From positions 1 through 35,943 of IMG/VR virus record IMGVR_UViG_3300036823_000141: 35,943 nt of DNA. One strand, 5' to 3'. The notes beneath the pieces are model-generated. The model worked only from the letters and a program-made list of their open reading frames with translations, was not told where the DNA came from and ran no database searches. The DNA is from a virus. The position numbers and the translations under genes were made by a program. This document shows positions 4,393 to 32,907 of this stretch, in pieces (position 1 is the stretch's first letter; every line of letters begins with the position of its first letter).

Positions 4393-4658
4393 CGTGCAAA
4401 TTCTGCGGCTGCACCGATGAACGCCCATGCATGATTGAGATGTTTTGGGCCACAACCCCTGACGTCATCGAGCTCCGGGTTTTCTTTGGCGATGCTATCT
4501 ATCCGGCAATTGCTGGCCAAGGCCGACTCGCGGAGATCGAGACGCCGTGTCATTGGAGCGCGCCGGGTATCTGTTCGGCGCCGGCATGCGTCGATCGCGC
4601 ATATCCGGAAGCGTGCGCTCTCGTCGACCGGATGCTACTGGAGGAACTGGCAGCATGA
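4389..4658 (+). CDS. Small Cys-rich phage protein
   Basis: An 89-residue protein opening with CKFCGCTDERPC (C3, C6, C8, C14) and carrying a second cluster, CHWSAPGICSAPAC, near the centre. This resembles small phage proteins that start with KCxxCGCTxxxAC and later contain a CSxC pair, probably binding one zinc. It overlaps its neighbours by ATGA at both ends and directly precedes the HerA-like ATPase, with which it is coupled. Confidence 0.65.
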   Translation: MTCKFCGCTDERPCMIEMFWATTPDVIELRVFFGDAIYPAIAGQGRLAEIETPCHWSAPGICSAPACVDRAYPEACALVDRMLLEELAA

Positions 4659-6439
4659 GCAAGATCAACATCGGACTGTCAGATGGCAAGCCGCTATTCA
4701 TAGACGTGGATCTTCTGATCCCGAGCCGGCTTCTCATCCAGGCGAACTCAGGCGGAGGTAAGTCGTATCTGCTGCGACGGCTGATGGAGGCGCTTTGGAA
4801 GCTCAAAGTGCAGACGATCGTCATCGATCCCGAGGGCGAGTTCTACACCCTGCGCGAGAAGTTTGGATATGTGCTGATCGGCGAGAATGGCGAAGCGCCG
4901 GCCGACGTCCGATCCGCGGCGCTCCTGGCCGAGAAATTCCTCCAGCTCAAGGCTTCGGCAGTTTGCGATTTGTACGAAGCTTTCCGTTCTCAGCCCATGC
5001 AGCAGCGGCAATGGGTTCGCGCATTCATCAATGCCCTGCTCGATGCTCCGCGATCGCTGTGGCATCCGCTGGTGGTCATCGTCGACGAAGCTCACAAGTT
5101 CTGTCCGCAAGAATCTCCCCAAGCGGCCAGCAGGAACGATCGCGAAATTATCGGCGGCTGTAAAGATGCCATGATTGCGCTCTCTACTACCGGACGCAAG
5201 CGCGGATTCTGTCCCATCTGGGCAACGCAACGTCTGGCGAAGCTCGATAAGGATGCTTCTGCCGAGTTCTTCAATCGCATGGTTGGCATGACGATCGAGG
5301 ATGTCGACGTGGACCGCGCCGCGGACCTGATGAGCGTATCGAAGGTCGACAAGGCAGACTTCCGCTCTTCGTTGCGTAATCTCACTCCTGGCGAGTTCTA
5401 TTGTTTTGGGCGCGCTGTCACGACTGTCCGCAAGCTGGTCAAAGTGGGATCTGTCGAAACTCATCACCCCGAAACCGGGAAGGCTGCGAAGACAGCCGTC
5501 GCTCCGCCTACTCCAGAAGAAGTGAAGAAGTTTCTTCCGCAACTTTCGGATTTGCCGAAGCAGGCGGAAGACAAGGCACGAAGCGAAGCTGAGTTGAAGC
5601 GTGAGCTCGCGGAGGCGCGTCGGCAATTAGCCGCGGCGACGAAAGCTCAGCCGGCTACATCGAAGTCTGCACCGGATCCGCGCGCGATCGAGCGCGCCGT
5701 CAAAGCTGCAACTGATCCACTGGTGAAGCAATTAAATCTCACCAAGCAAAGGATGCAGAATCTCCTCGGCAAGTCATCCGTGGAAGGCTCCAAGCTTGTC
5801 GAGATGCTCCAGGCAGGCCTCCGCGATATCGCTGGCTTAGAACTCCCTACCGTGTCATTGAACCCGCCAGCGATGGCGGCGCGCGTGCCTGCGTTAATCG
5901 CACCGCAACAGCAGCGCCAACCCAGAGCAGTTCCATCTTCCGGCCAGGCTTCCCCTTTGAATTCAGTGGGGATCCAAATTGCCGGCATCCTCGCGGCTTA
6001 CTATCCCGAGCAAATGAAACGCAGCATCTTGGCCGTTCTATGCGGCAGAACAGATGGCGGCACGTTTGGCAATCGCTTGAGTGAGCTGCGAGTTAACGGC
6101 CTTCTGGAAGATCCGGCTCCTGGGTATGTAAGGGCTACAGAGGTTTGTTCGCGTGAGTATGCCGGCGCTTTTGAAGCTCCCACGAATACAGCAGAAGTGC
6201 GGAAGGTCTGGGATACGAAGCTGGGAGAAGTAAACAAGAAAATTCTGGATTACCTGATCTCACTCAATGGTGAGTCGATCCACCGCGGGGAGTTGGCGGT
6301 GGCGCTGGGTTACACCGATGGAGGGACGTTCGGTAATCGCCTCAGTGAGCTGCGTGTGGCCGGCTTGATCGTAGATCCGGGAAAAGCTCTTGTGGCGGCG
6401 AACAAGGAAGCCCTGTTTCTCAATGGAGCGGCCGCATGA
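4655..6439 (+). CDS. HerA/FtsK-like (DUF87) ATPase with tandem C-terminal winged-helix-like repeats
   Basis: A 594-residue P-loop ATPase of the HerA/DUF87 type, probably a DNA translocase or pump. Walker A is ANSGGGKS (residues 30-37, K36). DPEGEF at 58-63 is the characteristic HerA motif, and Walker B is VVIVDEAHKF with D144 and E145. A downstream GRKRG followed by ATQR fits sensor and arginine-finger positions. After a charged coiled-coil-like linker (about 290-360) come two related blocks, TDGGTFGNRLSELRVNGL (from about 466) and TDGGTFGNRLSELRVAGL (from about 554), which look like recognition helices of winged-helix domains. No NurA-like nuclease partner is visible. It is the largest gene of the left arm, coupled by ATGA at both ends. 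Roles in replication, packaging or interference with other DNA are all possible. Confidence 0.85.
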   Translation: MSKINIGLSDGKPLFIDVDLLIPSRLLIQANSGGGKSYLLRRLMEALWKLKVQTIVIDPEGEFYTLREKFGYVLIGENGEAPADVRSAALLAEKFLQLKASAVCDLYEAFRSQPMQQRQWVRAFINALLDAPRSLWHPLVVIVDEAHKFCPQESPQAASRNDREIIGGCKDAMIALSTTGRKRGFCPIWATQRLAKLDKDASAEFFNRMVGMTIEDVDVDRAADLMSVSKVDKADFRSSLRNLTPGEFYCFGRAVTTVRKLVKVGSVETHHPETGKAAKTAVAPPTPEEVKKFLPQLSDLPKQAEDKARSEAELKRELAEARRQLAAATKAQPATSKSAPDPRAIERAVKAATDPLVKQLNLTKQRMQNLLGKSSVEGSKLVEMLQAGLRDIAGLELPTVSLNPPAMAARVPALIAPQQQRQPRAVPSSGQASPLNSVGIQIAGILAAYYPEQMKRSILAVLCGRTDGGTFGNRLSELRVNGLLEDPAPGYVRATEVCSREYAGAFEAPTNTAEVRKVWDTKLGEVNKKILDYLISLNGESIHRGELAVALGYTDGGTFGNRLSELRVAGLIVDPGKALVAANKEALFLNGAAA

Positions 6440-18063: not shown

Positions 18064-18318
18064 ATGTTCAACCGCACTTATCCAATCCGATCAGCGAGAG
18101 AAGTCAGGAAGGCTGGCGGCGGGCATCGCATCGCCGATCGAACGCTGGCGACAATTCACGACGGCGCATTTTATCGACCGAAGAGACGCATCCAGCCAGG
18201 CGCAGCACCCGCACCGAAAAAGAATTCACAGCAGATGCAGATTCCTTTTCCCATGACCTGCGAGCAGCTCGATCGCGAGTTTGATTTTCTGTTTTCGGAG
18301 AAGCCATGTCCTCGATAG
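18064..18318 (+). CDS. Hypothetical protein of the head module
   Basis: An 84-residue basic protein, beginning two bases after the preceding stop and overlapping the connector gene by 13 bases. It is rich in Arg, Pro and Lys (KAGGGHRIADRTLATIHDGA, PKRRIQPGAAPAPKKN) and ends in an acidic helix. No family is recognised. Confidence 0.5.
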   Translation: MFNRTYPIRSAREVRKAGGGHRIADRTLATIHDGAFYRPKRRIQPGAAPAPKKNSQQMQIPFPMTCEQLDREFDFLFSEKPCPR

Positions 18319-19505
18319 TACGCACCGGGACGGTTTCCGCTGAGCCCGTCACCCGCGGGGATATGAAGAACTATCTCAAACTTCCTCCCAGCAACCAGAC
18401 CGACGATACGTTGATCGACAGTCTCATCAGCGCCGCGCGGGTCCAGGCGGAGATCATCACCGAATGCGCGCTCGTGCGATCGACCTTCGTTCAATACATG
18501 GATCGATTTCCAGGCAGGCATAGTCACGAGCTGGGCAACTTTCAGCACGGCCGGCATTCCGCGGACCATCATCAGCACCATCGCGGTGAGATCAAGATGA
18601 AACGTGGACCGTTGGTCTCGGTACAAAGCCTTATCTACATCGGCACGGATGGGAATCCGTATCCGCTGAGCCCAGGCGAGGATTTCATCGTCGATCCGGC
18701 TACTCAGCCAGGGAGGATTCGCCCGGTTCCCTACACGGTCTGGCCTCTCACTCTTTGCGTTCCAAACGCGGTGGCGATCGCATTCACCGCAGGCTATGCT
18801 CCCGGAAATGTTGGCGTATCGGTCGACGCAGGGCAGACAACTATCCCCGAACCTGAAACGTCAACGCCGGCGTTCGGGCCGAGCTGGCAACCAGGCGCGT
18901 TGCGGCCGCAATTCAGCTTTCTTATCGATCCAATCGGCAATGTAGAAGTTCAGATGAGCGCGGGCACGCCGGCAGCCGGCACAACTGAGCCGACGTGGCC
19001 GGCTCCTGGTGCGACCGTCGCTGACGGCGCCGCGCTCTACAAGAATTTCGGTCCTCTGCGCGGAGTGTGGACTCCGGACACGCAATATTCCGGGAACTGG
19101 GTAATTCTCGATCAGAACGGCAACCTGCAGCTGCTGATCACTTCATCCCTTATCAGCCAGACCTCTCCGCCCGCGATTTCAAACGGCGCGGCCGAGCCTC
19201 CATTCTCGTCGACGCTCGGAGCGATCACTACCGACAACGGCATCCCCGCCTGGCAATGCCTGGGAGCCTATAAGGCGCTGGGCAATTCAGGCGCTTCGAC
19301 CTCGAACACTCCTGAGCAACAGGCCGCCTATACCGTCGACCTGGCGCTGCCTCCAACCATTCCGATCGCGCTGATGCAGCTCGTCGCACACTGGTATTTC
19401 AACCGCGAGCCGGTCATCGCCGGAGGCGCATTCGAAGTTCCCCTTCACGTTCAAAATCTTCTGGCGACCGTATCGGTTCCAGACTACGCACCAACGCCAG
19501 ACTAA
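18306..19505 (+). CDS. Head-tail connector (gp6-like) with inserted repeat modules
   Basis: A 399-residue protein, roughly twice the usual size of HK97 gp6-type connectors. The family N-terminus is clear: EPVTRGDMKNYLKLPPSN, then DDTLIDSLISAARVQAEIIT (residues 13-52). The family C-terminal helix is LPPTIPIALMQLVAHWYFNR at about 348-367. Between them are a His-rich loop (eight His in residues 72-92) and two tandem modules at about 194-254 and 255-320. Each module starts W.P, contains D..GN, and ends in G.(T)..DG followed by a W-or-Y...G motif, resembling carbohydrate-binding-like repeats of phage fibres. The connector would form a ring below the portal with the modules projecting outward. GGAG lies six bases before the ATG. 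Confidence 0.8.
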   Translation: MSSIVRTGTVSAEPVTRGDMKNYLKLPPSNQTDDTLIDSLISAARVQAEIITECALVRSTFVQYMDRFPGRHSHELGNFQHGRHSADHHQHHRGEIKMKRGPLVSVQSLIYIGTDGNPYPLSPGEDFIVDPATQPGRIRPVPYTVWPLTLCVPNAVAIAFTAGYAPGNVGVSVDAGQTTIPEPETSTPAFGPSWQPGALRPQFSFLIDPIGNVEVQMSAGTPAAGTTEPTWPAPGATVADGAALYKNFGPLRGVWTPDTQYSGNWVILDQNGNLQLLITSSLISQTSPPAISNGAAEPPFSSTLGAITTDNGIPAWQCLGAYKALGNSGASTSNTPEQQAAYTVDLALPPTIPIALMQLVAHWYFNREPVIAGGAFEVPLHVQNLLATVSVPDYAPTPD

Positions 19506-19540: not shown

Positions 19541-19966
19541 ATGTTCAGTAAACTCACAGCGCTCGTTAGCATTCTGATCCTGTCAGCGTCGATGGCATTT
19601 GCCACTGCGCCCACACCACTCACCGTTCCCACGCTCAAGCAAAACAACTACGCCGTGCAGGCGGGGGATCTGACGATCACCTTCGCCGCGTGTGATGCCA
19701 CCAACGGCAATTCCTTCTACATGACTGGACAGGAAATCCTTCTGGTCCAGAACTCCGACTCTGCCAGTCACACCTTCACTGTGACCAGCGTGGCGGATAC
19801 TCTCGGCCGAGTCGACAGTTCCCTCACCGCTTACACAGTGGCCGTGTCTCCTGCAGTAGTGGGAGTGCAAATGAAGGTTCTTCAAGGCTGGGTACAAAGT
19901 GGGCAGCTCGTGAATCTGACATGCAGCTCCACCATGCTTAAGTTCGCCGTCATCCGCTACCAATAA
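19541..19966 (+). CDS. Signal-peptide-bearing beta-rich protein in the neck module
   Basis: A 141-residue protein with a textbook Sec signal peptide: basic start, SILILSASMAFA core, and a probable cleavage after AFA (about residue 22). The mature part is beta-rich and clearly related to the last 125 or so residues of the large protein encoded at 20677-23868. Shared positions include a PG.L or QAGDL strand, an (I)ILAQN or EILLVQN strand, D.LGR, a long strand ending GW, and the terminus FAVIRYQ versus ISVIRYK. AAAGGAG precedes the ATG. Location among head-tail joining genes suggests a virion role, but the signal implies export. Confidence 0.65.
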   Translation: MFSKLTALVSILILSASMAFATAPTPLTVPTLKQNNYAVQAGDLTITFAACDATNGNSFYMTGQEILLVQNSDSASHTFTVTSVADTLGRVDSSLTAYTVAVSPAVVGVQMKVLQGWVQSGQLVNLTCSSTMLKFAVIRYQ

Positions 19967-20026
19967 ATCGAACACCAGCTCCCAGGCTGTGCACTTCACA
20001 AACCCCTTCAAAGAGGAAATTCCACC

Positions 20027-20677
20027 ATGAAAATCTCACGCACGTCCTTCAGTCTTTTGATTCCATTTTTGCTTGCGAGTCTTGTCTTCTCGCAGCAAGA
20101 AAAACTTCACACCGGCGACGCAGTAGCCGTTCAGGTCAATAGCCGGCCGGCCGCTCCTCGCGGACTTACGGCCGTGGCCCAGGAGCAGGCCGCGTCGCTC
20201 GTAGAGCAGTTAGCCGATCGGCCTCACTATGTGCATGTTGTCGCCAAGCATGCAGATGGCACAGTCTTCGCCGATTTCATAACGCACAATCTGCGGACCA
20301 CCGGCGGCGCCGATTGGCAAGCAAGCGTGATGGGCAATACGTCGACGCAGCCTGCTTCCTCAAATTACATCGCATTGACGAATGACGGCGGCGCTCCTGC
20401 CGCGGGTGATTGTGTGGCCGGTTCGACGAGCTGCACTTTGACCAGCGAGGTCAGCACCAACGGCCTGGCCAGGGCTCAGGGAACCTACGCCCACAGCAGC
20501 GGAACCAGCAGCTGGACGCTGACTCATACCTGGACAGCCACAGGAGCGCAATCCGTACAGAAGGCCGGCATGTTCAACGCCACGAGCTCAGGGACCATGG
20601 TTTTTGAAGCTTCCTTCAGCTCCGTCACTCTGGCCAGCAGCGACACGCTCACAGTTACCTGGACCGTTTCGATCTAA
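20027..20677 (+). CDS. Exported fibre-like protein
   Basis: A 216-residue protein with an N-terminal signal (SFSLLIPFLLASLVFS, probable cleavage near residue 22). The last 140 residues (HNLRTTGGADWQASVMGNTS onward: a T/S/G-rich beta domain with STNGLARAQGTYAHSSGTSS and a final LTVTWTVSI strand) resemble domains found in tail-fibre-like and surface proteins. It has AGAGGAAA upstream and is joined to the next gene by TAATG. Export of a fibre-like protein is the odd feature. Confidence 0.65.
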   Translation: MKISRTSFSLLIPFLLASLVFSQQEKLHTGDAVAVQVNSRPAAPRGLTAVAQEQAASLVEQLADRPHYVHVVAKHADGTVFADFITHNLRTTGGADWQASVMGNTSTQPASSNYIALTNDGGAPAAGDCVAGSTSCTLTSEVSTNGLARAQGTYAHSSGTSSWTLTHTWTATGAQSVQKAGMFNATSSGTMVFEASFSSVTLASSDTLTVTWTVSI

Positions 20678-23600
20678 TGAATGCGGCACCCAACTTTCCG
20701 CCTCGAACCAAGATCATTCTTGTCTTGCTCTTCGCGGCGGCTTCCTGCTTTGCACAAAGCACGGGAACGGGCACGGTGCAGATTCCGTCACCGATCCCGA
20801 GCTGGGGCGGATACCTGGGCCGCGGCACGGTCATCACTCCGTCAGACTTTGGCGCGCCGATCTGCCGCGGCACGGATGGACATTCGGAATCAGATTTTGA
20901 CAGCACTCAAAATGGCGCGAACTTCTCTGAAAACTTCAGCGGCTCCAACGTCGATCATCGGATCAGCTCAAACCATTCGCTAGTAGCGCTCGCGCGAAAC
21001 GGAGCCTCAGACTCATTGATTGAGTCAGTCTCCTGGAACGGCGGTCCGAGTTGTGTCCTCTCAGTTGTCTACGACGTCCCAAGTAAGTCCATCGCTTTTA
21101 GTGGGCAAGCTTCGAAGCCGAAAACACTTTTCGATGTCGAGACCGCGGCAATTAAGAAGTACGATTTCGGTGATACGGCGACGGGCACTCCTGCGACCAT
21201 CACGTCATTTTCCATCACCTCAAATGTTGTTACCGTCATCGGTTCGAATTCTTTCGTAGCTGGGCAGTCGGCACTCATCAGCGGACTCACCATTGGCACA
21301 TACCTAAACGGGTCTAGGCTGATCGTGCTCACGGCGGGACTTTCCTCCACGCAGTTTGAAGCTGCATTCACTCATGCAAATGTCACTTCGACCTCGGCTT
21401 CAGGAACCGCGACCCCAAGTTGCTCCCTCACCGGACCTTGCGTCACCGTGGTGCATGACTTTGCGGCTGGAACCTGTCTCTCTGGAATATCGCCCACATC
21501 GAATAGCGTTTTTCTGCAGAGTCACCTGGACCAGTTCTTTGCGATAGGCTTCTCGATCGGCGGAGGACAGGGTACTGGGACGCTGATATCAACTTTTCTG
21601 ATTGGATCCGGCGAGCGAATTTTAAATTCCGGCGGCAGCACCGTGATGGGGATCCCCGCCAGCTCAGTGTGCGGAGACTACGGTCCCACCGGCATGATCA
21701 ATATGGTCGGCGGAAACTGCCCCGCGGCCGGATCGGGCGTTTGCGGGACCGGCGCTGGCGGCGTTGTTTTCCCCGATCAATCAACGTTCCACGAAGTTTA
21801 CGCTTCGCCGAACGATACGACTCCGTGGCTCGTCTATGATCTGGGCGCGACCTGCACGCAATGCGGATCGGATGACGATTGGATCTGGTCGGCTAAAACG
21901 CTTAACGTAACGGCTCCAAGTTGGAGCGGTCACTACGCCCTGGGCTACAACCACGTCGTCATCGCGACGAACAATCCTTCGCTAGGAGAGAATGCGATTT
22001 TCCAGGCGATCGATAGCAGCGGCAATCTTATTTTCCCGATTACAAAACTCAGCATCATCTCGACTTCGAGTCCCAACAATTTGCCTTCTCCAGGCGTCAG
22101 CAACCTGGACAATCACCTGTCCTGGCAAAACGTGGACGCGAACGACACCAATAGTGTTTTTGAGACAAACACGGTTTACCGCACTGACACCGTGGATCTG
22201 ATCGCAAATTATGTTGCCTCCGGAGAGCCGCCTTCAGCGATGCCAGGAATTGAGTGTGGCATCACTTGCTTGCCGGTGCTCAATCCGATTCCAGGCTACG
22301 GCGTCAACGAATTGCTGTCTAATCCTTTAACAGACCCACCGGGAAACGGAACGCTTGGCAACACATCGCCGCTCACCACGAAGGCGAAAACGCGCTATGC
22401 CCATGAACTGAACGACACCGCTTCGGCTCTCTTCAATGCGCAGAACGCGGCCGGCGGCGTTTCTCCGGACGGCATGATGTTCGCCTTCACTACAACCGAC
22501 TTCTGCGGCTTTGGCGATAGCACGAATGACAGCAACGGAATCTGCGGCGGTCCGCCCTGGAACAATTCAAATGTCTACCACGTTGGCAACATCGTTTCGC
22601 CGCTCGGCGTGGGAAATCCTGGCCACTTCACCTATCAAGTAACTGCGATCTCTGGAACCGGCACCAGCAGCGCCTCGGCTCCAACCTGGACGCAATCAGC
22701 CGGCGCCGTGGTAATCGACAACGCCGGCGCGAACCAAGTTACGTGGACTGCCAGCAACGCGCAAAACATGCGCTCTGACGTCTTATTCGTCTGGTTGGCG
22801 ACTCCTGGAGTACCGGTTTCAAATGCGGCCACGCCAGCGCCCTCGCAATCGCTATGCACGACGGATTCAATCTCGATCGCTCCTTCTCATCGCAATCTTC
22901 GCGAAGGAACGCACCTGGTGAATCTGACATGGGGCGGACTGAGTCCCGCTCCGGACTGGTATCGGGTTTATCGCTCGCAGGTGAGCGGCGGTCCCTACAC
23001 GGTCATCGCGGACTGCCTTCAGAGCGCGGCCTACACTGATAAGAATGTCGTCGATACGCAGACTTATTTCTACGTGGTAACCGATGTTCTCCTGGGAGGA
23101 GAATCGAGTTTTTCAAACGAGATCTCCGCCAGCATCCCGACCTTCGACACCATCTCGGTCTCTTACACAGGTCCGCTGCCCAACTTCTTCGAAACGCTGA
23201 ACACTTCGGCTTCGGTTGCAGCCCATCACGCGGGACCGCGGACGGCCAGCGAGACTCTGACGATCAGCGACGCCATTGTGACGAGCTCCGCGCACTTCCG
23301 CCTGGCGCAGGAAACTCTTATCACGAACGGCGCCATGGCCTCGAACGTCACAGGACCGCTGGCTATAGGGCTTACCGAAGACATCAGGACCTCCGATAAC
23401 ATTTCGCGATTGAGCGTGTTCGGGCGTTCCGCCGGCGAATCGTTGTCGACTTCAGATTCTCCTCTGGCGACTGTTAACGTCGGCGGGGATCCAGCCTGCA
23501 TCTTTACCTCAGACTGCAATGGTCCTTCTCTGCTGACAGTGGATGTGCTGCAGAAAAACGGTTCTCCGATCGCGCCCGGTTCCCTGGTCATTCCCTTCCA

Positions 23601-23868
23601 GGCCGGCGCGGTCCATGGGATCTGCTACAGCGCGACGGCGCGAGACATCATCCTGGCGCAAAACGTTTCGACGCGCGAGCAGTTTCTGAGCATTCAGAAT
23701 CAGGCGGACCGGCTCGGCCGCACAACGCCGCAATTTTCGCAGTATCCGGTCGACCCTGGAATTTCGATGGCGATTCAGATGAGGCGCCAAGTGGGTTGGG
23801 CTCTCGCCGGCCAGATCTGTTTCAACACAACGAATGGCCTCAACATCTCCGTCATTCGCTACAAGTAA
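20677..23868 (+). CDS. Large modular exported protein with FN3 domain and adhesin-like repeats
   Basis: A 1063-residue protein, the longest in the window. It begins with a signal peptide (RTKIILVLLFAAASCFAQ, residues 10-27). After a beta-rich region come an 80-residue T/S-rich module (about 170-250), a W-P/DG-W module at about 628-693 like those in the connector, a fibronectin type III domain at about 733-821 (WYRVYRSQVSGGPYTVIADC, then YFYVVTDVLLGGES), four degenerate ET/DLxxSD repeats (about 850-930), and a C-terminal domain (about 935-1063) homologous to the small exported protein at 19541. The layout is that of an adhesin or receptor-binding fibre. It starts by TAATG coupling and is followed without a gap by the head-closure gene. 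Confidence 0.75.
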   Translation: MNAAPNFPPRTKIILVLLFAAASCFAQSTGTGTVQIPSPIPSWGGYLGRGTVITPSDFGAPICRGTDGHSESDFDSTQNGANFSENFSGSNVDHRISSNHSLVALARNGASDSLIESVSWNGGPSCVLSVVYDVPSKSIAFSGQASKPKTLFDVETAAIKKYDFGDTATGTPATITSFSITSNVVTVIGSNSFVAGQSALISGLTIGTYLNGSRLIVLTAGLSSTQFEAAFTHANVTSTSASGTATPSCSLTGPCVTVVHDFAAGTCLSGISPTSNSVFLQSHLDQFFAIGFSIGGGQGTGTLISTFLIGSGERILNSGGSTVMGIPASSVCGDYGPTGMINMVGGNCPAAGSGVCGTGAGGVVFPDQSTFHEVYASPNDTTPWLVYDLGATCTQCGSDDDWIWSAKTLNVTAPSWSGHYALGYNHVVIATNNPSLGENAIFQAIDSSGNLIFPITKLSIISTSSPNNLPSPGVSNLDNHLSWQNVDANDTNSVFETNTVYRTDTVDLIANYVASGEPPSAMPGIECGITCLPVLNPIPGYGVNELLSNPLTDPPGNGTLGNTSPLTTKAKTRYAHELNDTASALFNAQNAAGGVSPDGMMFAFTTTDFCGFGDSTNDSNGICGGPPWNNSNVYHVGNIVSPLGVGNPGHFTYQVTAISGTGTSSASAPTWTQSAGAVVIDNAGANQVTWTASNAQNMRSDVLFVWLATPGVPVSNAATPAPSQSLCTTDSISIAPSHRNLREGTHLVNLTWGGLSPAPDWYRVYRSQVSGGPYTVIADCLQSAAYTDKNVVDTQTYFYVVTDVLLGGESSFSNEISASIPTFDTISVSYTGPLPNFFETLNTSASVAAHHAGPRTASETLTISDAIVTSSAHFRLAQETLITNGAMASNVTGPLAIGLTEDIRTSDNISRLSVFGRSAGESLSTSDSPLATVNVGGDPACIFTSDCNGPSLLTVDVLQKNGSPIAPGSLVIPFQAGAVHGICYSATARDIILAQNVSTREQFLSIQNQADRLGRTTPQFSQYPVDPGISMAIQMRRQVGWALAGQICFNTTNGLNISVIRYK

Positions 23869-24264
23869 ATGCCTCTTCGTCGCCTCAATTCGGTTGTGCC
23901 GGCCGCTGGCAACTATATGCCGCTCGGCTCGTTTCAATCCATTGTTACTATTTTGGCGCCAGGCGGAAGGAACAACGACGGAAGCACGCAACCGTCTAGT
24001 CCGTTGACGACTTCATGGGCAGCGATCCGTGCGCTCCGAGGCGACGAAGTGGATAAGGCGCAGCAGATTGCGCAATCGATTTCGCACATGGTGGTCATCC
24101 CTTACCAGACGGGAATCACCAACAGCATGTCCGTCGGGCTCGACGACGGAGGATCCACCGATCGAATTTTTCAAATCAACTATGTCGAAGATGCGGATGA
24201 ACGCCAGGTCGAGCTGCGCCTCTATTGCACAGAGACTGGCCAGAATGCCGGACAGCAATCGTGA
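23869..24264 (+). CDS. Head-tail joining (head closure) protein
   Basis: A 131-residue protein of the SPP1 gp16-like/Phage_H_T_join type, the plug that closes the filled head. Seen: an N-terminal GSFQSIVTILAP strand pair, TSWAAIRALRGDEVDKAQQI (a W...RAL.G.E..KA pattern), HMVVIPYQTGITNSMSVGLD, and an end motif RIFQINYVEDADERQVELRL. It begins directly after the large exported gene's stop and overlaps the next gene by GTGA. Family assignment is good; its separation from the connector gene by 4.4 kb is unusual. Confidence 0.8.
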   Translation: MPLRRLNSVVPAAGNYMPLGSFQSIVTILAPGGRNNDGSTQPSSPLTTSWAAIRALRGDEVDKAQQIAQSISHMVVIPYQTGITNSMSVGLDDGGSTDRIFQINYVEDADERQVELRLYCTETGQNAGQQS

Positions 24265-24956
24265 TCGAAAGCGGACTCTATCAATTCGCCACCCAGACCA
24301 GTGCGATCACGGATTGCCTGGGCAAGGCCGAATCGGTTTTCTTTTCGGCGCTGATGAAGCAATCGAAGCTTCCCGCGCTCGTGATTCATCGAGTGTCGCT
24401 AACAGACCCCGCGACAACGCTCGATCTACAGACTTCCGCACCCGCACTGGTGGTGGGACGTTTCCAGTTCAGCAGTTTTGGCGAAGACAACAACAATGCC
24501 AATCTTATCTCGACGTCAGGCTATCTATGCGCCGCGCAGCTTTCGCGCACTCTTCGGCTCACACTGCAAGCCATGGTCGGGCTGCCGCTTCCCGATGGCA
24601 CGGTGATCACGGATTACCAACTCAACGATGAATTCGACGCCGACTATGAAGTAGGCGGCACAGGTTATGTTTTTCGCCGGCTGCTCGATGTCACGCTCTG
24701 GTTTGAAGAGGGCGGCGCAGCTCCGGAGGTTCCATTGCCATTCCAACGCTATTCCCCGACACAGTCACCAGACGGATCGCGAACGGTTTTCACTTTCGCC
24801 GGCGAGGCCGCTTCGAGCGCCGAATTCCAGCTCTTCTGGGATGGTCTGCTGCAAAACGAAGGCGGCGACTACACCATCGTCATCGGCGGCGGCGTAACGC
24901 AAGTGACCATGACCGAGGCGCCTCTAAGTGGCCAGCCCGTGTTCGCATATTTCTAA
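24261..24956 (+). CDS. Tail terminator-like protein fused to a fibre-like module
   Basis: A 231-residue protein. Residues 1 to about 160 fit a DUF3168/tail-completion domain: short helices, a PALVIHRVS strand, VVGRFQFSSFGED, a long helix ending LTLQAMVGLPLPDGT, then YVFRRLLDVTLWFEE. Residues about 165-231 are an extra module (GSRTVFTFAGEA, then LFWDGLLQNEGGDYTIVI) of a kind usually seen in tail fibres, and shared with the next gene. GTG at 24261 overlaps the preceding stop. The fusion would decorate the head-tail joint. Confidence 0.72.
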   Translation: MIESGLYQFATQTSAITDCLGKAESVFFSALMKQSKLPALVIHRVSLTDPATTLDLQTSAPALVVGRFQFSSFGEDNNNANLISTSGYLCAAQLSRTLRLTLQAMVGLPLPDGTVITDYQLNDEFDADYEVGGTGYVFRRLLDVTLWFEEGGAAPEVPLPFQRYSPTQSPDGSRTVFTFAGEAASSAEFQLFWDGLLQNEGGDYTIVIGGGVTQVTMTEAPLSGQPVFAYF

Positions 24957-24984
24957 GTTTTAAATTTCCGAAAAAAGAGGACCT

Positions 24985-25698
24985 ATGAATCTCGCACTGT
25001 CAGTGTTCGTTGGGTTGGGTTTCGCGCTGTGTCTATTTACGTTGATCGCGATCTGGTTCGTCCCTGGATTCTTCCAGGCCTTCTGGCGCAAAGCTACGCG
25101 GCCGCTCGGGGCGGTTGCGATTTTCGGGATCGCGATCTTATTCATGGGCGCGGTCACGCAGATCAGTCTGACCACGCAGGTCAACGGAATCCTGCCCAGC
25201 GCGAATGGTGGAACCGGAAGCGCTTTCATCGCCTTCTCGGGCCCGACAGCGCTGAGGACATATACCGGGCCCGATGCGAATGCCACTCTTCTCACATCGA
25301 ACACGGCCGTCAGCGTCCCGCAAGGTGGAACCGGAGCAGGGACATTTACTAATCACGGCGTGTTGCTCGGTCAAGGTACGAGCACACTCGCCGTGACGGC
25401 TGCCGGCACGTTGGGGCAATGCTTCACTTCAAACGGAGCATCTGCTGATCCCACATGGCAGCCCTGCCCTGGCGCTCTGAATTTTTCAGACAACGAAGTT
25501 CCGACAGGAACCATCAACGGCAGCACCACCGCTTTTACCTTGGCGCATGCGCCTAACCCTGCTGCTAGTCTGAATTGCAACGAGAACGGCGTCCACCAGA
25601 TTGCCGGCGGCTCCGATTTCACGCTGGCGACACTTACTATCACTTACGGCGTCGCGCCTCCAACGGGCTCCACGCTCAACTGCAGCTATCGCTACTAA
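24985..25698 (+). CDS. Membrane-anchored fibre-like protein
   Basis: A 237-residue protein with two N-terminal membrane spans (about residues 4-26, LSVFVGLGFALCLFTLIAIW; about 40-58, LGAVAIFGIAILFMGAVT). The rest is phage-fibre-like: VNGILPSANGGTGS and VSVPQGGTGAG carry the GGTG signature of tail fibres, and the last 65 residues are the NG..Q..G.DFTL module related to the end of the preceding protein. AAAAGAGGA precedes the ATG. A fibre-type ectodomain on a membrane anchor suggests display on the lysogen surface or in the inner membrane. Confidence 0.68.
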   Translation: MNLALSVFVGLGFALCLFTLIAIWFVPGFFQAFWRKATRPLGAVAIFGIAILFMGAVTQISLTTQVNGILPSANGGTGSAFIAFSGPTALRTYTGPDANATLLTSNTAVSVPQGGTGAGTFTNHGVLLGQGTSTLAVTAAGTLGQCFTSNGASADPTWQPCPGALNFSDNEVPTGTINGSTTAFTLAHAPNPAASLNCNENGVHQIAGGSDFTLATLTITYGVAPPTGSTLNCSYRY

Positions 25699-25707
25699 GG
25701 ATTGCTC

Positions 25708-26721
25708 ATGAACCGCAGAGACAAAATCATCGTCACGTTCGCAGCCCTTATCCTTATCGGGATGGGGATCTGCGCCGTGACGGTGATCGATGTTAGTTTT
25801 CAGGTGAAGGGCGTGCTCGCGCTCGCCAACGGCGGTACCGGGCTCAATGCTCTGCCTGGCACTGCAGGTCAATTGCTCTTCAACAATTCCGGAGTGCTCG
25901 CAGCCGAAGATCCAATCATCAGTTACAACTATGCGAACCTCCTGACCACGGCCGTCGCGACCGCGACTGCGTCGACGTCCTCGCCTGTACGCCTCTCGCG
26001 CTTCAGCGGGTTCGGAACTCTATACGTCACGTTTGCTTCGATCACCGGATCTCCGCTCACCTGCACTCTGCAATTGAAGAACGCGGACAGCCTAGGCAAC
26101 CTGATCAACAATGGATCCCCAATTTCGGTAACGCCGGCGAATGGCATCACAACGATCGCCGTGAATTCTGCTTCCGGATTGCAGACGGCCGCGCAGCTGA
26201 GCGTCACCTTCGCCTGCGGCACCTATCCCACTGCCGGCACCATCAGCGTCGATTACGTGCAAGCGGACACTGTGGCGATCGCGGGATCGCTGCCGGCAGG
26301 CACGAATTCAATCGGTGGCGTAAAACTCTCGGACTCCGCGGGCACGGGCTACATCGTGGATCCTTGCCAGGGGAATGCTCACACCACATTCTCGATCAAC
26401 CAGGCAACGGGCACGCAGCTCATCGCCGGAACTTCCGGAAAGAAAATTTACATTTGTTCGTACCATGTGGTCACAGCGACCGCGCAAAATATCGCTCTCG
26501 TTGAAGGCACTGGGACGGTCTGCGCCAGCGGCACAGCTGGACTCAAAGGCTTCGGTGGATCCACAGCAGCGACCGGTCAGAATTTCGCAGCGAATGGTGG
26601 CGAAACGTACGGCGATGGTTCATACCAGATCGGCACGGAAGCGACCGCGGCCGACAATGTCTGCCTTCTGCAGTCGAGTACTGGCCAGGTCTCTGGAGGC
26701 GGCAGCTATGTGTTGCAGTAA
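25708..26721 (+). CDS. Membrane-anchored fibre-like protein, larger
   Basis: A 337-residue protein. RRDKIIVTFAALILIGMGIC (residues 3-22) is a basic start plus one membrane helix or uncleaved signal. FQVKGVLALANGGTGLNALP follows with the same GGTG fibre signature as the neighbouring protein. The ectodomain is beta-rich and contains Cys pairs (PLTCTLQL with SVTFACGTY; YICSYHVV with GTVCASG and NVCLLQSS), which would fit an oxidising extracytoplasmic compartment. ATG at 25708 with AAGGA upstream is preferred over TTG at 25702. It overlaps the next gene by 14 bases. Confidence 0.66.
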   Translation: MNRRDKIIVTFAALILIGMGICAVTVIDVSFQVKGVLALANGGTGLNALPGTAGQLLFNNSGVLAAEDPIISYNYANLLTTAVATATASTSSPVRLSRFSGFGTLYVTFASITGSPLTCTLQLKNADSLGNLINNGSPISVTPANGITTIAVNSASGLQTAAQLSVTFACGTYPTAGTISVDYVQADTVAIAGSLPAGTNSIGGVKLSDSAGTGYIVDPCQGNAHTTFSINQATGTQLIAGTSGKKIYICSYHVVTATAQNIALVEGTGTVCASGTAGLKGFGGSTAATGQNFAANGGETYGDGSYQIGTEATAADNVCLLQSSTGQVSGGGSYVLQ

Positions 26722-27502
26722 AACCGCGCTGCGAATCGCGACGATTCTTCTGCTCTGCTGCTCACTAAATGCGCAGGTCAGTCTTCCTCTGATGGGTGTA
26801 GGAGGAACGGCGGCCGGCGGCGGAGGCCTCGGAATATTTACCCTGGTCCACAACTACGCGCAAGATTGCGGCGGCGGGGTTAAGGTCTGCACCGCGACCA
26901 TCACGGCTCTCGGCAGCGGCCACGGCGTGGGTGCATTTTGCTTTCTCGTTTATCCGACCTCGACCACTAATGCTCTACCCACCAGCATCACGTCGACGGC
27001 AAATGCTTTCACGCCGCCAGCCACGGCGAATGTCGCGGTTCTGGCAACGCACAATTACATCACGCTAGGTGGCGCCTATAACATAAGCTCTATTTCCGGG
27101 ACTACATCGGTCACCTGCAACTGGGCGAATGCGACGGCCGGCTCGGTCGAAGATGCGATCATCCACATTTTTGAATATTCCTACACCGGCTCTTCGATTT
27201 CGTTCGACAACGCGAATGCCGTTTCTAATGCGGCTTGCACGAATTGTTCTGGCGTTTCTCTAACCCTCAGCGGTTCTGTCGAAGTCGTCATGCAAGCACT
27301 GATGGCCGACACCACTACCAACGGTTGTGACGGTGGGACGATCACGGGCGGAGCTGGATACACCAGTCCCAACGAGCAATCCGTCGACGGTGAAGTTAGC
27401 GCCGGCGCCATCAACACCAGCAACGGCGCCGCGCCCACCTGGAATGGATGCGCTACCTCTGACAAGACAGTTGGCTATGCCATGGCCTTCAAGGGCAACT
27501 AG
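26708..27502 (+). CDS. Exported beta-rich protein with Cys pairs
   Basis: A 264-residue protein with a signal peptide (TALRIATILLLCCSLNAQ, probable cleavage after LNA near residue 22). The mature part has a Gly-rich start and a beta-sandwich-like domain with several cysteines (DCGGGVKVC, CNWANA, ACTNC, GCDGG), ending KTVGYAMAFKGN, a pattern seen in secreted or fibre-like bacterial proteins of unknown function. It starts inside the preceding gene and lies just before the tail-tube genes. Confidence 0.62.
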   Translation: MCCSKTALRIATILLLCCSLNAQVSLPLMGVGGTAAGGGGLGIFTLVHNYAQDCGGGVKVCTATITALGSGHGVGAFCFLVYPTSTTNALPTSITSTANAFTPPATANVAVLATHNYITLGGAYNISSISGTTSVTCNWANATAGSVEDAIIHIFEYSYTGSSISFDNANAVSNAACTNCSGVSLTLSGSVEVVMQALMADTTTNGCDGGTITGGAGYTSPNEQSVDGEVSAGAINTSNGAAPTWNGCATSDKTVGYAMAFKGN

Positions 27503-27517
27503 CAATCCTGCAGTCGC

Positions 27518-27949
27518 ATGTCAGCCCCAATTACATGGAACGGCCGCGGATCGCAGCTCATGGTGTCTACCGACGGCGGAACTGACTACACGCCTCTGGT
27601 CCAACTGCAGCGCATCGAGCCCGGCGGATCGAAGCAGACCGTCATCGATCAGACGAACCTGACGACGCCCGGCAACACCACTCAACCTTACCCGGTCCAG
27701 GTGGACTCGGGCGAATGGGATTGCGAAGGCCTGCTGAATCCGAGCGATACGGTCACGCTCTCTCTCGCGGCACTTCACGCAAGTTGCACGATCGCAGATT
27801 TTAAAGTCGTCATGCCTGATGAGGACGAAAGCATTTATACCTTCCAGGCGATGGTGAGCGAGTTCAAACCGCTGAGCATCAAGGCCAACAAACTCATCGG
27901 ATACAGCTTTAAGCTGCGCGTCGTCGGCGGCGTCACTTTTCCCTCTTAG
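27518..27949 (+). CDS. Tail tube protein (first paralogue)
   Basis: A 143-residue tail-tube-like protein. It starts with a short extended arm (SAPITWNGRGSQLMVS), has the QLQRIEPGGSKQTVID and DSGEWDCEGLLNPSDTVT segments, and ends in a FKLRVVGGVTF strand. The layout matches siphovirus tube subunits, which stack as hexamers. It is paralogous to the next gene (both show GRGS near the start, LQ.(L/I)E......D, and D.G.(W/Y)...G..(N/D)P). The upstream context lacks a strong ribosome-binding site. Confidence 0.72.
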   Translation: MSAPITWNGRGSQLMVSTDGGTDYTPLVQLQRIEPGGSKQTVIDQTNLTTPGNTTQPYPVQVDSGEWDCEGLLNPSDTVTLSLAALHASCTIADFKVVMPDEDESIYTFQAMVSEFKPLSIKANKLIGYSFKLRVVGGVTFPS

Positions 27950-27992
27950 CAAAAACCCTTTTCACAAATCACATTTCCAAGGAGCATTCACC

Positions 27993-28445
27993 ATGGCAAA
28001 CCCAGTTAGTTACGGCGGTCGAGGCAGCTCGATCGGCTTCAACCTCTCGCCTTTCTCAGGCCCTTACACCATTCTGCCGCAATTGCAGAAGTTGGAACGC
28101 ACCAGCTCGAAGACTGACACCGACGATGCCACCTGCCTCGACTCGCCTGGGAACAATAAATTTCCCGTGCCCGTCGTCGTCGACAACGGAAAGTATTCCG
28201 GCAGCGGCGTCTATGACCCGCAGAATCCGGCCATCACCGCGCTGCAGGGTTATCAGCAGAGCATGATTCAGGTCGGCTACAAGATCATTCTCGTCGACGG
28301 CACGATTGCGACCGGCCTGGGCTATATCACTAAGTTCGAAGCGCCGAAAATCGATCGCTACAAGGTCAATATGTTTGACTTCGAAATGGACATCTTCGGC
28401 GTCGAAACCCTGACCCCGTCCGGCGGAGCTCCGATCTCTGAATAA
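27993..28445 (+). CDS. Tail tube protein (second paralogue)
   Basis: A 150-residue relative of the preceding protein: VSYGGRGSSIGFNLS, LPQLQKLERTSSKTDTDDAT, VVDNGKYSGSGVYDPQNPAI, then a C-terminal KVNMFDFEMDIFGVE strand. AAGGAG at good spacing suggests stronger translation than the first copy, so this may be the main tube subunit. The two copies may form a mixed tube, or one may be an end or spacer variant. Confidence 0.75.
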   Translation: MANPVSYGGRGSSIGFNLSPFSGPYTILPQLQKLERTSSKTDTDDATCLDSPGNNKFPVPVVVDNGKYSGSGVYDPQNPAITALQGYQQSMIQVGYKIILVDGTIATGLGYITKFEAPKIDRYKVNMFDFEMDIFGVETLTPSGGAPISE

Positions 28446-31224: not shown

Positions 31225-32180
31225 TGAAGAAGGCTTACGAAGATGCTCTCACGCCGCTCCAGAAATTCTCGATTGCGCAAAAGGAGCTCGGGTTAATTCT
31301 GAAGGACGCGAATGGCAACTTCATTGGCGGCGCTCAAGGCGCCGCTGCATATGCAGGTGCGTTACGTCACCTGGAGGAAGAGGAAGAAAAGCAGCTAGCG
31401 GCCAGTCGCAAAGTAACTGATGGACTTCACGCTTTCTGGATAGAGATGCAGATCGAGGCGGGCAAGAACGGGGCGTTCGCCTTCGACATTCTCAACAAAG
31501 CCGTCAAAGGATTCGAAGACAACCTGGCAAATGCGATTGTAGATGGCACCCGCAACTGGAAACGCGAGTGGGAAAGCATCGCGAAAGATCTTGAGAAAAC
31601 TACGCTCAAATTCGCTTTCACCAAAACCATTTCCAGCGTTGGCTCCGAAATTGGAAAGACCGGGATCGGAGGCAGGATCGGCGGGATCCTCGGAGGTCTT
31701 GGAAAAGGCGGAGGACCGGAGGCTGGGAACACGGCCGCTATCACGGCTAATACGACTGCTCTCGGAGCAAATACCTCGGCCCTGATGAGCTCAACGGTCA
31801 AGAGTGGGGCGGTGCCAGGATTGTCTCTTACGCCCGGACTGGGCGGTGCGGCAGGCGGAGGCGCGGCAGCCGCGGCTTCTACCGACGATTTTGCGGGATT
31901 CTTTGCGGACGGTGGGGACGTAACACCAGGTGGCCGCTTCATAGCGGGTGAGGCGGGAGCGGAAGAGATCGATCTGAATTCCGGAGGAGCGCACGTCACT
32001 CCGCTGGGCAAGGGCGGCGGCGACGTTCATCATCACTACGACATGCGAGGGGCCGTCGTGACTGACGACCTCATGAGGAAAGCTGACGCTGCAAAAATGA
32101 TTACTCAGAGCGAGCAGCGGACAATGCAATCAAGCGCCAGCATGCAGCGCGAGATTAGTTTGCGGAAGCGGCCTGGCTAG
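31224..32180 (+). CDS. Tape measure protein, C-terminal part
   Basis: The last 318 residues of the tape measure protein if counted from ATG 31224. YEDALTPLQKFSIAQKELGL and AVKGFEDNLANAIVDGTRNW are typical of lambda gpH-like C-terminal domains, followed by a Gly/Ala-rich section, then FADGGDVTPGGRFIAGEAGA and HHHYDMRGAVV, the usual end signature. It is in the -1 frame relative to the first part. Together the two parts give about 788 residues, which by the usual 1.5 Å per residue implies a tail near 120 nm. Its 3' end overlaps the convergent gene by 26 bases. Confidence 0.83.
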   Translation: MKKAYEDALTPLQKFSIAQKELGLILKDANGNFIGGAQGAAAYAGALRHLEEEEEKQLAASRKVTDGLHAFWIEMQIEAGKNGAFAFDILNKAVKGFEDNLANAIVDGTRNWKREWESIAKDLEKTTLKFAFTKTISSVGSEIGKTGIGGRIGGILGGLGKGGGPEAGNTAAITANTTALGANTSALMSSTVKSGAVPGLSLTPGLGGAAGGGAAAAASTDDFAGFFADGGDVTPGGRFIAGEAGAEEIDLNSGGAHVTPLGKGGGDVHHHYDMRGAVVTDDLMRKADAAKMITQSEQRTMQSSASMQREISLRKRPG

Positions 32181-32907
32181 CTGATGGAGACAGCCATGTG
32201 AAGTTTTTGTTGTGATCGTTGGTGTAAATCAGTTTTGAAAATCCTCGATCTCGAAGCTCCTCCTCGATCGTGCCACCACCTTTCATCTTCGAGCGGAGCA
32301 TGGATTCGTAATGACCTTCATCGGCCCTGCTGGAGTGGACTGTTAGCACAGTGCCGGCAAGTTGCGCATAGCCGCTTCCTATCTCGCGAAGATGCAAGGT
32401 CAGGGAATCGCAGAAAGCACGACGCGCAGCATCGCCGGGAAGTCTTACAGAGTCGGCCGTCCAATCCGAGATGATCATGCCACAAGCACTCTTTACATCG
32501 GCAGCGATGCTTCCCTTTTCACTCGTCGAAAGAACATCTCCGATTCTGTTCGAAACAACGATTTGATTGTCTCTCGAGAACCCCACCTCGATATGTCTAA
32601 GGGATACGGTGTAGTCAGCAGCCGACGGATTCACGGTCATGATGACGTGAGGGCAGTCCCGCTGAAAGTCCTTTGTCATTTCGATCGATTGATCTCGCTG
32701 GGCGCCCCATGTATTACCGGTCGAAATGGCCTGCACTAGGACGCGCGGATCCGGTTTGGCCGCAGGAATATCGCTTGGTTGTTGCGCTGCAGGAATGGCA
32801 GGGGCGACAGGGGATTCATATCCGCCAGTTGCGTTTTGTTGAGCTGAGCCAACAGTCGCAGCCAGCATTAGCAGGATCGCCGCGGCGATCGTCAGATTGA
32901 TTTTCAT
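32155..32907 (-). CDS. Secreted protein on the reverse strand, probable lysogenic cargo (moron)
   Basis: The only convincing reverse-strand gene in the window, set inside the tail module. The 250-residue product has a clear signal peptide (KINLTIAAAILLMLAATVGSAQQ, cleavage near residue 22), a Pro/Ala linker, then a domain with ISTGNTWGAQRDQSIEMTKD, CPHVIMTVNPSAADYTVSLR and a later ADVKSACGMIISDW. It resembles secreted hypothetical proteins I associate with Acidobacteria rather than phage structural proteins. The start at 32907 is preferred to the longer frame (to 33036) because the signal peptide then begins at residue 1. Independent expression in the lysogen is likely; function is unknown. 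Confidence 0.75.
   Translation of the reverse strand: MKINLTIAAAILLMLAATVGSAQQNATGGYESPVAPAIPAAQQPSDIPAAKPDPRVLVQAISTGNTWGAQRDQSIEMTKDFQRDCPHVIMTVNPSAADYTVSLRHIEVGFSRDNQIVVSNRIGDVLSTSEKGSIAADVKSACGMIISDWTADSVRLPGDAARRAFCDSLTLHLREIGSGYAQLAGTVLTVHSSRADEGHYESMLRSKMKGGGTIEEELRDRGFSKLIYTNDHNKNFTWLSPSASQAASAN

Follow-up and report, generated by a model that had tools for sequence, protein, structure and literature searches.

Predicted export signals on proteins of the head-tail module in a probable Acidobacteriota provirus and related phages

Gene content of the window

The window, i.e., the whole stretch of 35,943 nucleotides analysed here (IMG/VR record IMGVR_UViG_3300036823_000141, positions 1 to 35,943), has host genes at its left end, where the end of a MiaB-like gene is recognizable by inspection and where gene 446-931 encodes a protein, interpreted as a DUF151 nuclease, that shares 83% identity over 161 aa with a sequence in an Acidobacteriota genome. 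On these grounds, the window most likely represents a provirus, and its virus one of soil Acidobacteriota. A gene at 4655-6439 appears, from motifs identified by inspection only, to encode a phage-borne HerA/FtsK-like ATPase. The head part of the window runs in the order terminase, portal, protease, major capsid, P163, small genes, head-tail connector (HTC), A, B and C, and is followed by head closure, a putative tail terminator, D, E, F, two tail-tube-like genes, tape measure and tail genes. The HTC (18306..19505; like the module genes described below, on the plus strand) has no signal and has homologues at the same place in many related contigs; the window copy is about 100 aa longer than its 300-aa orthologues, with an apparent mid-protein insert.

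Six genes of this module had been described in the initial annotation as encoding exported or membrane-anchored, fibre-like proteins. Genes that are coding by codon usage are indeed present at all six positions (E starts at 25708, its mechanical open reading frame at 25702), and the four Sec signal peptides and two sets of membrane helices read from the sequence are borne out. A (19541..19966) is a small, beta-rich and decoration-like protein of 141 aa with a Sec signal at residues 1-21, the cysteines C51 and C128 and an SD-like site; B (20027..20677) has 216 aa, a conserved phage C-terminal domain (phrog_5417, 7.4e-5) and a cysteine pair; C (20677..23868) is a predicted exported fibre of 1063 aa with homology to signal-bearing proteins of contigs L001, L003, L005 and L057; and F (26708..27502) is a cysteine-rich protein of 264 aa, the gene of which overlaps the end of E. 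Each of these four proteins combines a positively charged n-region and a hydrophobic core with a predicted signal-peptidase I site, viz., ...AFA/TA in A, ...VFS/QQ in B, ...CFA/QS in C and ...LNA/QV in F. D (24985..25698), a fibre-like protein of 237 aa, starts with a transmembrane hairpin, the two helices of which are joined by a loop with R/K residues; it also has two GGTG motifs, and its C-terminal part contains four cysteines. E (25708..26721), likewise fibre-like and of 337 aa, has one GGTG motif and a single N-terminal hydrophobic helix behind RRDK, which may act as a signal-anchor or a signal peptide and is weaker than the signals of A, B, C and F. By the positive-inside rule, the fibre parts of D and E would lie outside the cytoplasm.

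The six genes flank, as had been noted, head closure Hc1 (23869..24264; Phage_HCP, 2.2e-9; phrog_25, 1.6e-9) and the putative tail terminator TT243 (24261..24956), neither of which has a signal. The role of TT243, which has a C-terminal extension and syntenic homologues, is taken from its position; a Pfam search found no family match. Homology between the C-terminal domains of D and TT243 was considered and discarded as evidence, the alignment being weak. The two tail-tube-like proteins (27518..28445; phrog_158, 9.8e-14 and 1.4e-6) and the downstream tail genes have no signals in the window. The only other called gene of the window with a signal peptide, and a clear one, is moron-like and lies on the minus strand (32155-32907) between tape measure and tail genes. 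Searches of Pfam and PHROGs were uninformative as to the family of C, D, E and F, with F having no match in these databases, and neither a beta-helix nor a hydrolase domain was found in the six window proteins.

Conservation of the export signals in related viral contigs

Signals were called with a rule applied to the sequence, and the calls are supported by conservation of the signals in relatives and by cysteine statistics. Among the 218 core phage genes of these contigs, the rule fires on two, a fragment at a contig edge and a misfire. Both hits are apparent misfires, and chance N-terminal hydrophobicity was ruled out as the source of the signals. Wrongly assigned starts were ruled out as well, given the SD-like sites 5' of A and B and the retention of the signals in relatives: in the A and B families the signal is conserved in orthologues at the true start, an SD-like site precedes the start in the A relatives checked, and the class of signal is kept despite sequence drift. 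Judged from these sequences, export of the proteins is very probably real.

Viral contigs related to the window were found through B and A, and about 40 of them carry such signal-bearing genes. The 52 tabulated entries, four of which are the same contig fetched twice, include 46 with at least one signal-bearing gene and 40 with at least two. In relatives, the signal-bearing proteins range from about 110 to 1829 aa and are encoded after the capsid gene, after head closure or before the tail tube. Structural proteins of tailed phages are held to be cytoplasmic; we know of no tailed phage that sends particle-type proteins out of the cytoplasm, and a limited literature search found no precedent for exported particle proteins in tailed phages. 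That the trait is shared by many related viral sequences and by two phages grown in the laboratory (see below) suggests that particle-type proteins are sent out of the cytoplasm here.

The A family has 22 distinct signal-bearing sequences, the window included, and A, with or without a signal peptide, lies between HTC and head closure in 25 of the 28 contigs of readable order (window included), the exceptions being L045, L055 and L060; in L030, the order is interrupted by a single gene. Signal-less A orthologues (L034, L045, L048, L049 and L050) occupy the same neck locus, start with M[SA][QR]T.L at the position of the mature N-terminus and have no C51/C128 pair. By a strict automatic count, both cysteines are present in 19 of 22 copies with a signal peptide and in 0 of 7 without (p = 7.7e-5; here and for B below, the rows counted are related sequences and the p-values are therefore optimistic). 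Examined by eye, L025 has two cysteines missed by the regular expression, L047 is cut by the contig end, and L030, with a signal and no cysteines, is the sole true exception. About three changes of signal state are needed on the A tree, which is poorly resolved and also compatible with a single origin. The A profile gave no match in 396 Acidobacteriota genomes, i.e., no host-genome copy of A was found; A and two of its signal-less homologues gave no match in INPHARED, where a third homologue had weak partial matches only, and the portal protein used as a probe in viral contigs found no confirmed relative.

B likewise keeps its signal peptide in relatives, and its cysteines are present in 15 of 19 copies with a signal peptide compared with 2 of 13 without (p = 8e-4, similarly optimistic), the signal-bearing exceptions being loci from genomes named Nitrososphaera or Nitrososphaeraceae. 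The B-domain proteins of contigs so named (L013, L014 and L015), most of which have hydrophobic N-termini, are without cysteines and may reflect either a virus or mis-binning. Gain of signal and gain of cysteines thus occur together in the A and B families. C ends in a copy of the A domain and also carries a separate region found in further exported C proteins, and 20 of its cysteines lie beyond residue 25; the A domain in this place would fit an anchor carrying a fibre. The D homologue in L030 has a transmembrane N-terminus, E has relatives with clear signal peptides in L001, L003, L035, L043 and L058, and genes at the E position have a common, recognizable signal type (PIGLLLFxxLCLVPG...AQ).

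In relatives, the neck modules of which the initial annotation had suggested comparing for a conserved six-gene block, the A locus is mostly kept and the genes at the C to F positions are highly variable between phages. This variability, along with a signal style (...AQ) and FN3-like regions that in our judgement resemble host secreted proteins, would suit host-derived morons encoding secreted proteins, with no role in the phage cycle and present in the structural module by chance. We consider such an origin improbable, given that A is found at one locus in most relatives, that C runs stop-to-start against head closure and that such arrays are also present in unrelated phages, cultured lytic ones among them.

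Hydrophobic prefixes are also found on two virion proteins of relatives. In the post-capsid protein, MTQITAQ... becomes ...LFGTFITAQ... in L001, L003, L004, L035 and L043, with diverged forms of the prefix in L039, L041 and L046. In several relatives, the second tail-tube-like protein is extended at its N-terminus by hydrophobic residues, and MTTTAYPGRGS... becomes ...LFGTTIAYPGYGS... (L001, L035, L040, L041 and L043, also L038). Both prefixes follow one pattern, in which two hydrophobic stretches flank a histidine and the small residues after it, with an FGT-type junction at the end. A prefix with a conserved histidine is present on two unrelated proteins (L001:9026-9583 and L001:19596-20159, with equivalents in L003, L004, L035, L038-L041, L043 and L046), and the prefix-less orthologues of both begin exactly at the prefix junction; the window copies of both are without these prefixes. 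Like D and E, these prefixes are anchor-like with no clear cleavage site, as would be expected if the N-termini were unprocessed hydrophobic virion or membrane anchors and export were only apparent. The typical cleavage sites of A, B, C, F and most other signal-bearing proteins, and a cysteine parity bias that fits an oxidising compartment, make this explanation quite unlikely.

Cysteine content of the signal-bearing proteins

The mature part of 85 non-redundant signal-bearing proteins shows a bias towards an even number of cysteines (61 even, 22 odd, p = 1.1e-5), compared with 18 even and 49 odd among core virion proteins and 57 and 59, respectively, among other non-signal proteins. The density of cysteines is 1.79 per 100 aa in the signal-bearing proteins and 0.77 in the core proteins. 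The even bias matches what folding in an oxidising periplasm would be expected to leave in the sequences. Phage Milano has disulfides in virion proteins that are not exported, and disulfide-rich surface proteins (PMC10491603); cysteines by themselves are therefore no proof of export. Proteins encoded at the prohead protease position in L001, L004, L025, L027, L039, L044, L046 and L053 have a very cysteine-rich C-terminal tail (e.g., CNCRCERCADC, CDCRCVACARDNDCGSCSDH).

Predicted folds of A and B

The AlphaFold model of A (pLDDT 88) matches small uncharacterised phage proteins in a Foldseek search of BFVD (E to 5e-7, TM-score up to 0.66/0.80), and its PDB matches are weak (TM ~0.42) and include chains from the neck/portal-vertex entries of phage Milano and from 7-7-1 capsid entries. 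The matched chains measure 137 and 135 aa, and a jellyroll has been described in the minor capsid protein of Milano (PMC10491603); both points suggest that these chains may be decoration proteins. For B (pLDDT 78), the best PDB matches are the phage GP4 fibre/fibre-tail adaptor and Bas63 connector entries. The likeness of A and B to phage neck, capsid or fibre-adaptor proteins is weak, with TM-scores of 0.3-0.6 against the PDB and none at E <= 0.001, and function is not identifiable from these folds. Of 25 members of the A family, 13 have a match to PHROG 16194 (tail protein) with E-values of 0.5 or lower, the best being 8e-7.

As in the window, the genes for the Milano minor capsid protein, LP1 and collar and for T4 Hoc and whiskers belong to the head-neck module, and the likeness extends to the disulfide-rich surface proteins of Milano, to Ig-like, FN3-like and fibre domains and, weakly, to the small beta-rich fold of A. 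To our knowledge, the decoration proteins and neck appendages of Milano and T4 are made in the cytoplasm without signal peptides, whereas the proteins described here carry Sec signals.

Signal-bearing structural genes in cultured phages

Tunturi 1 and 2 are described as lytic podovirus-like phages of Tunturiibacter psychrotolerans (PMC11924767), and the main text of that article makes no mention of signal peptides or mass spectrometry. In Tunturi 1, ORF12, 13, 14, 16 and 17 of the structural module have signals; ORF12 is called transmembrane by the rule, but its start, MKKFIQLALLFILPAAASAQ, is that of a typical signal peptide. The deposited annotations name ORF14 a tail spike and ORF17 a virion structural protein in Tunturi 1, and ORF13 a tail fiber protein and ORF14 a pectin lyase in Tunturi 2. 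ORF33, a protein of 124 aa with no signal, is likewise annotated as a tail fiber; receptor binding thus has its main candidates, though not all of them, in the signal-bearing genes. ORF17 differs most between Tunturi 1 and 2 (97.0% identity, with a 96-residue gap). The run of signal-bearing structural-module genes (ORF12-14, 16 and 17) and the host phylum are as in the window phage, but the head and tail are of another type and the proteins are largely unrelated in sequence. L067 is related to the podovirus type of Tunturi 1 (40% over 1117 aa for ORF31) and has large signal-bearing proteins of its own, one of 1792 aa with 44 cysteines. The trait is not general to Acidobacteriota phages, a possibility ruled out by several prophages and by Tunturi 3 and 4, which share the host strain and the host genus, respectively, and the structural genes of which have no signals.

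Several exported proteins of relatives have a right-handed beta-helix, as do tail spikes and depolymerases, and Tunturi 1 ORF14 carries the tail spike annotation. We know of no export signals on ordinary tail spikes, whereas the same slot holds signal-bearing proteins here.

Expression and possible sites of action

The start of C lies on the stop of B (TAATG), and head closure begins directly after the stop of C (TAA/ATG), so that C is probably made with an essential virion gene. No promoter-like site was found 5' of the cassette, the nearest match being inside gene C at 22184, and the cassette region has fewer promoter-like matches than shuffled sequences. From gene order alone, the set is probably made together with the late virion proteins. 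The lipobox pattern is found in 3 of 126 signal-bearing proteins, none of the six among them, and no outer-membrane anchor was recognised in the signal-bearing proteins.

Export of these proteins is strongly supported. Two routes had initially been proposed for them, i.e., a cell-surface system of the lysogen or infected cell and a decoration of the virion that passes through the envelope. Display by the lysogen is weakened by the lack of a 5' promoter-like site, the coupling of C to head closure, the scarcity of lipoboxes and the presence of the trait in lytic isolates. The virion-linked route has gained support from signal-less A at the same neck locus, the weak fold likenesses of A and B, and the tail-spike signals of Tunturi 1 and 2. 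The exclusion proteins T5 Llp, phi80/N15 Cor and TP-J34 Ltp are small, mostly lipoproteins, and are expressed early or from the prophage. The proteins described here are like them in being exported, phage-encoded and possibly envelope-acting, but differ in their size (about 110 to 1800 aa), near absence of lipoboxes and location inside the structural module.

Domains detected in relatives include a beta-helix (in L005 above the Pfam cut-off, in L028 and Tunturi 1 ORF17 below it), FN3 (L060), an Ig-like domain (L030, below the cut-off), a chitobiase C-terminal domain (Tunturi 1 ORF17) and a GDSL hydrolase in an L034 protein that is itself without a called signal. These domains suggest contact with polysaccharide. 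Their adhesin-like or enzyme-like nature would also suit proteins that never join virions and instead form a coat in the periplasm or on the cell surface, or leave the cell when it lyses, with receptor masking, exclusion of other phages, prevention of progeny re-adsorption to debris or loosening of extracellular polysaccharide as outcomes. Two further observations point the same way: the window phage has additional tail genes without signals, so its exported fibres need not be receptor binders, and the cassette is absent from several prophages of Acidobacteriota whose terminases are related, so particles can be built without it. Proteins acting in this manner would have little to hold them on an intact diderm cell, given the few lipoboxes and no recognised outer-membrane anchor; the signal-less A orthologues at the same neck locus and the fact that the main tail-fibre and tail-spike genes of Tunturi 1 and 2 are the signal-bearing ones also argue against it. 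On balance, a role wholly outside the virion seems rather doubtful, though it deserves serious consideration.

A model for assembly in two compartments

Our leading reading, to which we give close to an even chance, is that the six genes encode late-expressed appendage or decoration proteins of an Acidobacteriota siphophage, which are oxidised in the periplasm and added to progeny virions when the cell lyses. A, B, C and F would be translocated by Sec and then cleaved, and D and E would remain inserted in the inner membrane, their fibre domains facing outward. The exported proteins would fold and form disulfides in the periplasm, and once lysis breaks the inner membrane, the soluble ones could attach to progeny virions, probably to their neck or capsid, via domains that are made in the cytoplasm in sister phages. 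Judging by the beta-helix, FN3, Ig-like and GDSL domains of relatives, they may then act adhesively on, or depolymerise, host or soil polysaccharide. Conserved export signals, disulfide-type cysteines, signal-less orthologues at the same locus and the coupling to head closure are the features read from the sequences that support this scheme; late timing, virion docking, the docking site and lysis as the moment of docking are what we infer. The hydrophobic prefixes on the post-capsid protein and the second tail-tube-like protein of relatives also count in its favour. No mechanism is known to us that would let tailed virions acquire proteins from the periplasm. The broader proposal, that a group of Acidobacteriota tailed phages assembles in two compartments, with capsid and tail made in the cytoplasm and Sec-exported, disulfide-bonded decoration, neck or spike proteins added at lysis, is plausible and is put forward with some reserve.

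Tunturi 1 and 2, being lytic and cultured on a soil bacterium, make the question directly testable. If the exported proteins are not virion parts, these phages would be spending several kilobases of their structural module on coating or digesting the host surface. If they are, phage assembly would make use of the host secretory route, which may offer new options for disulfide-stabilised particles in soil.
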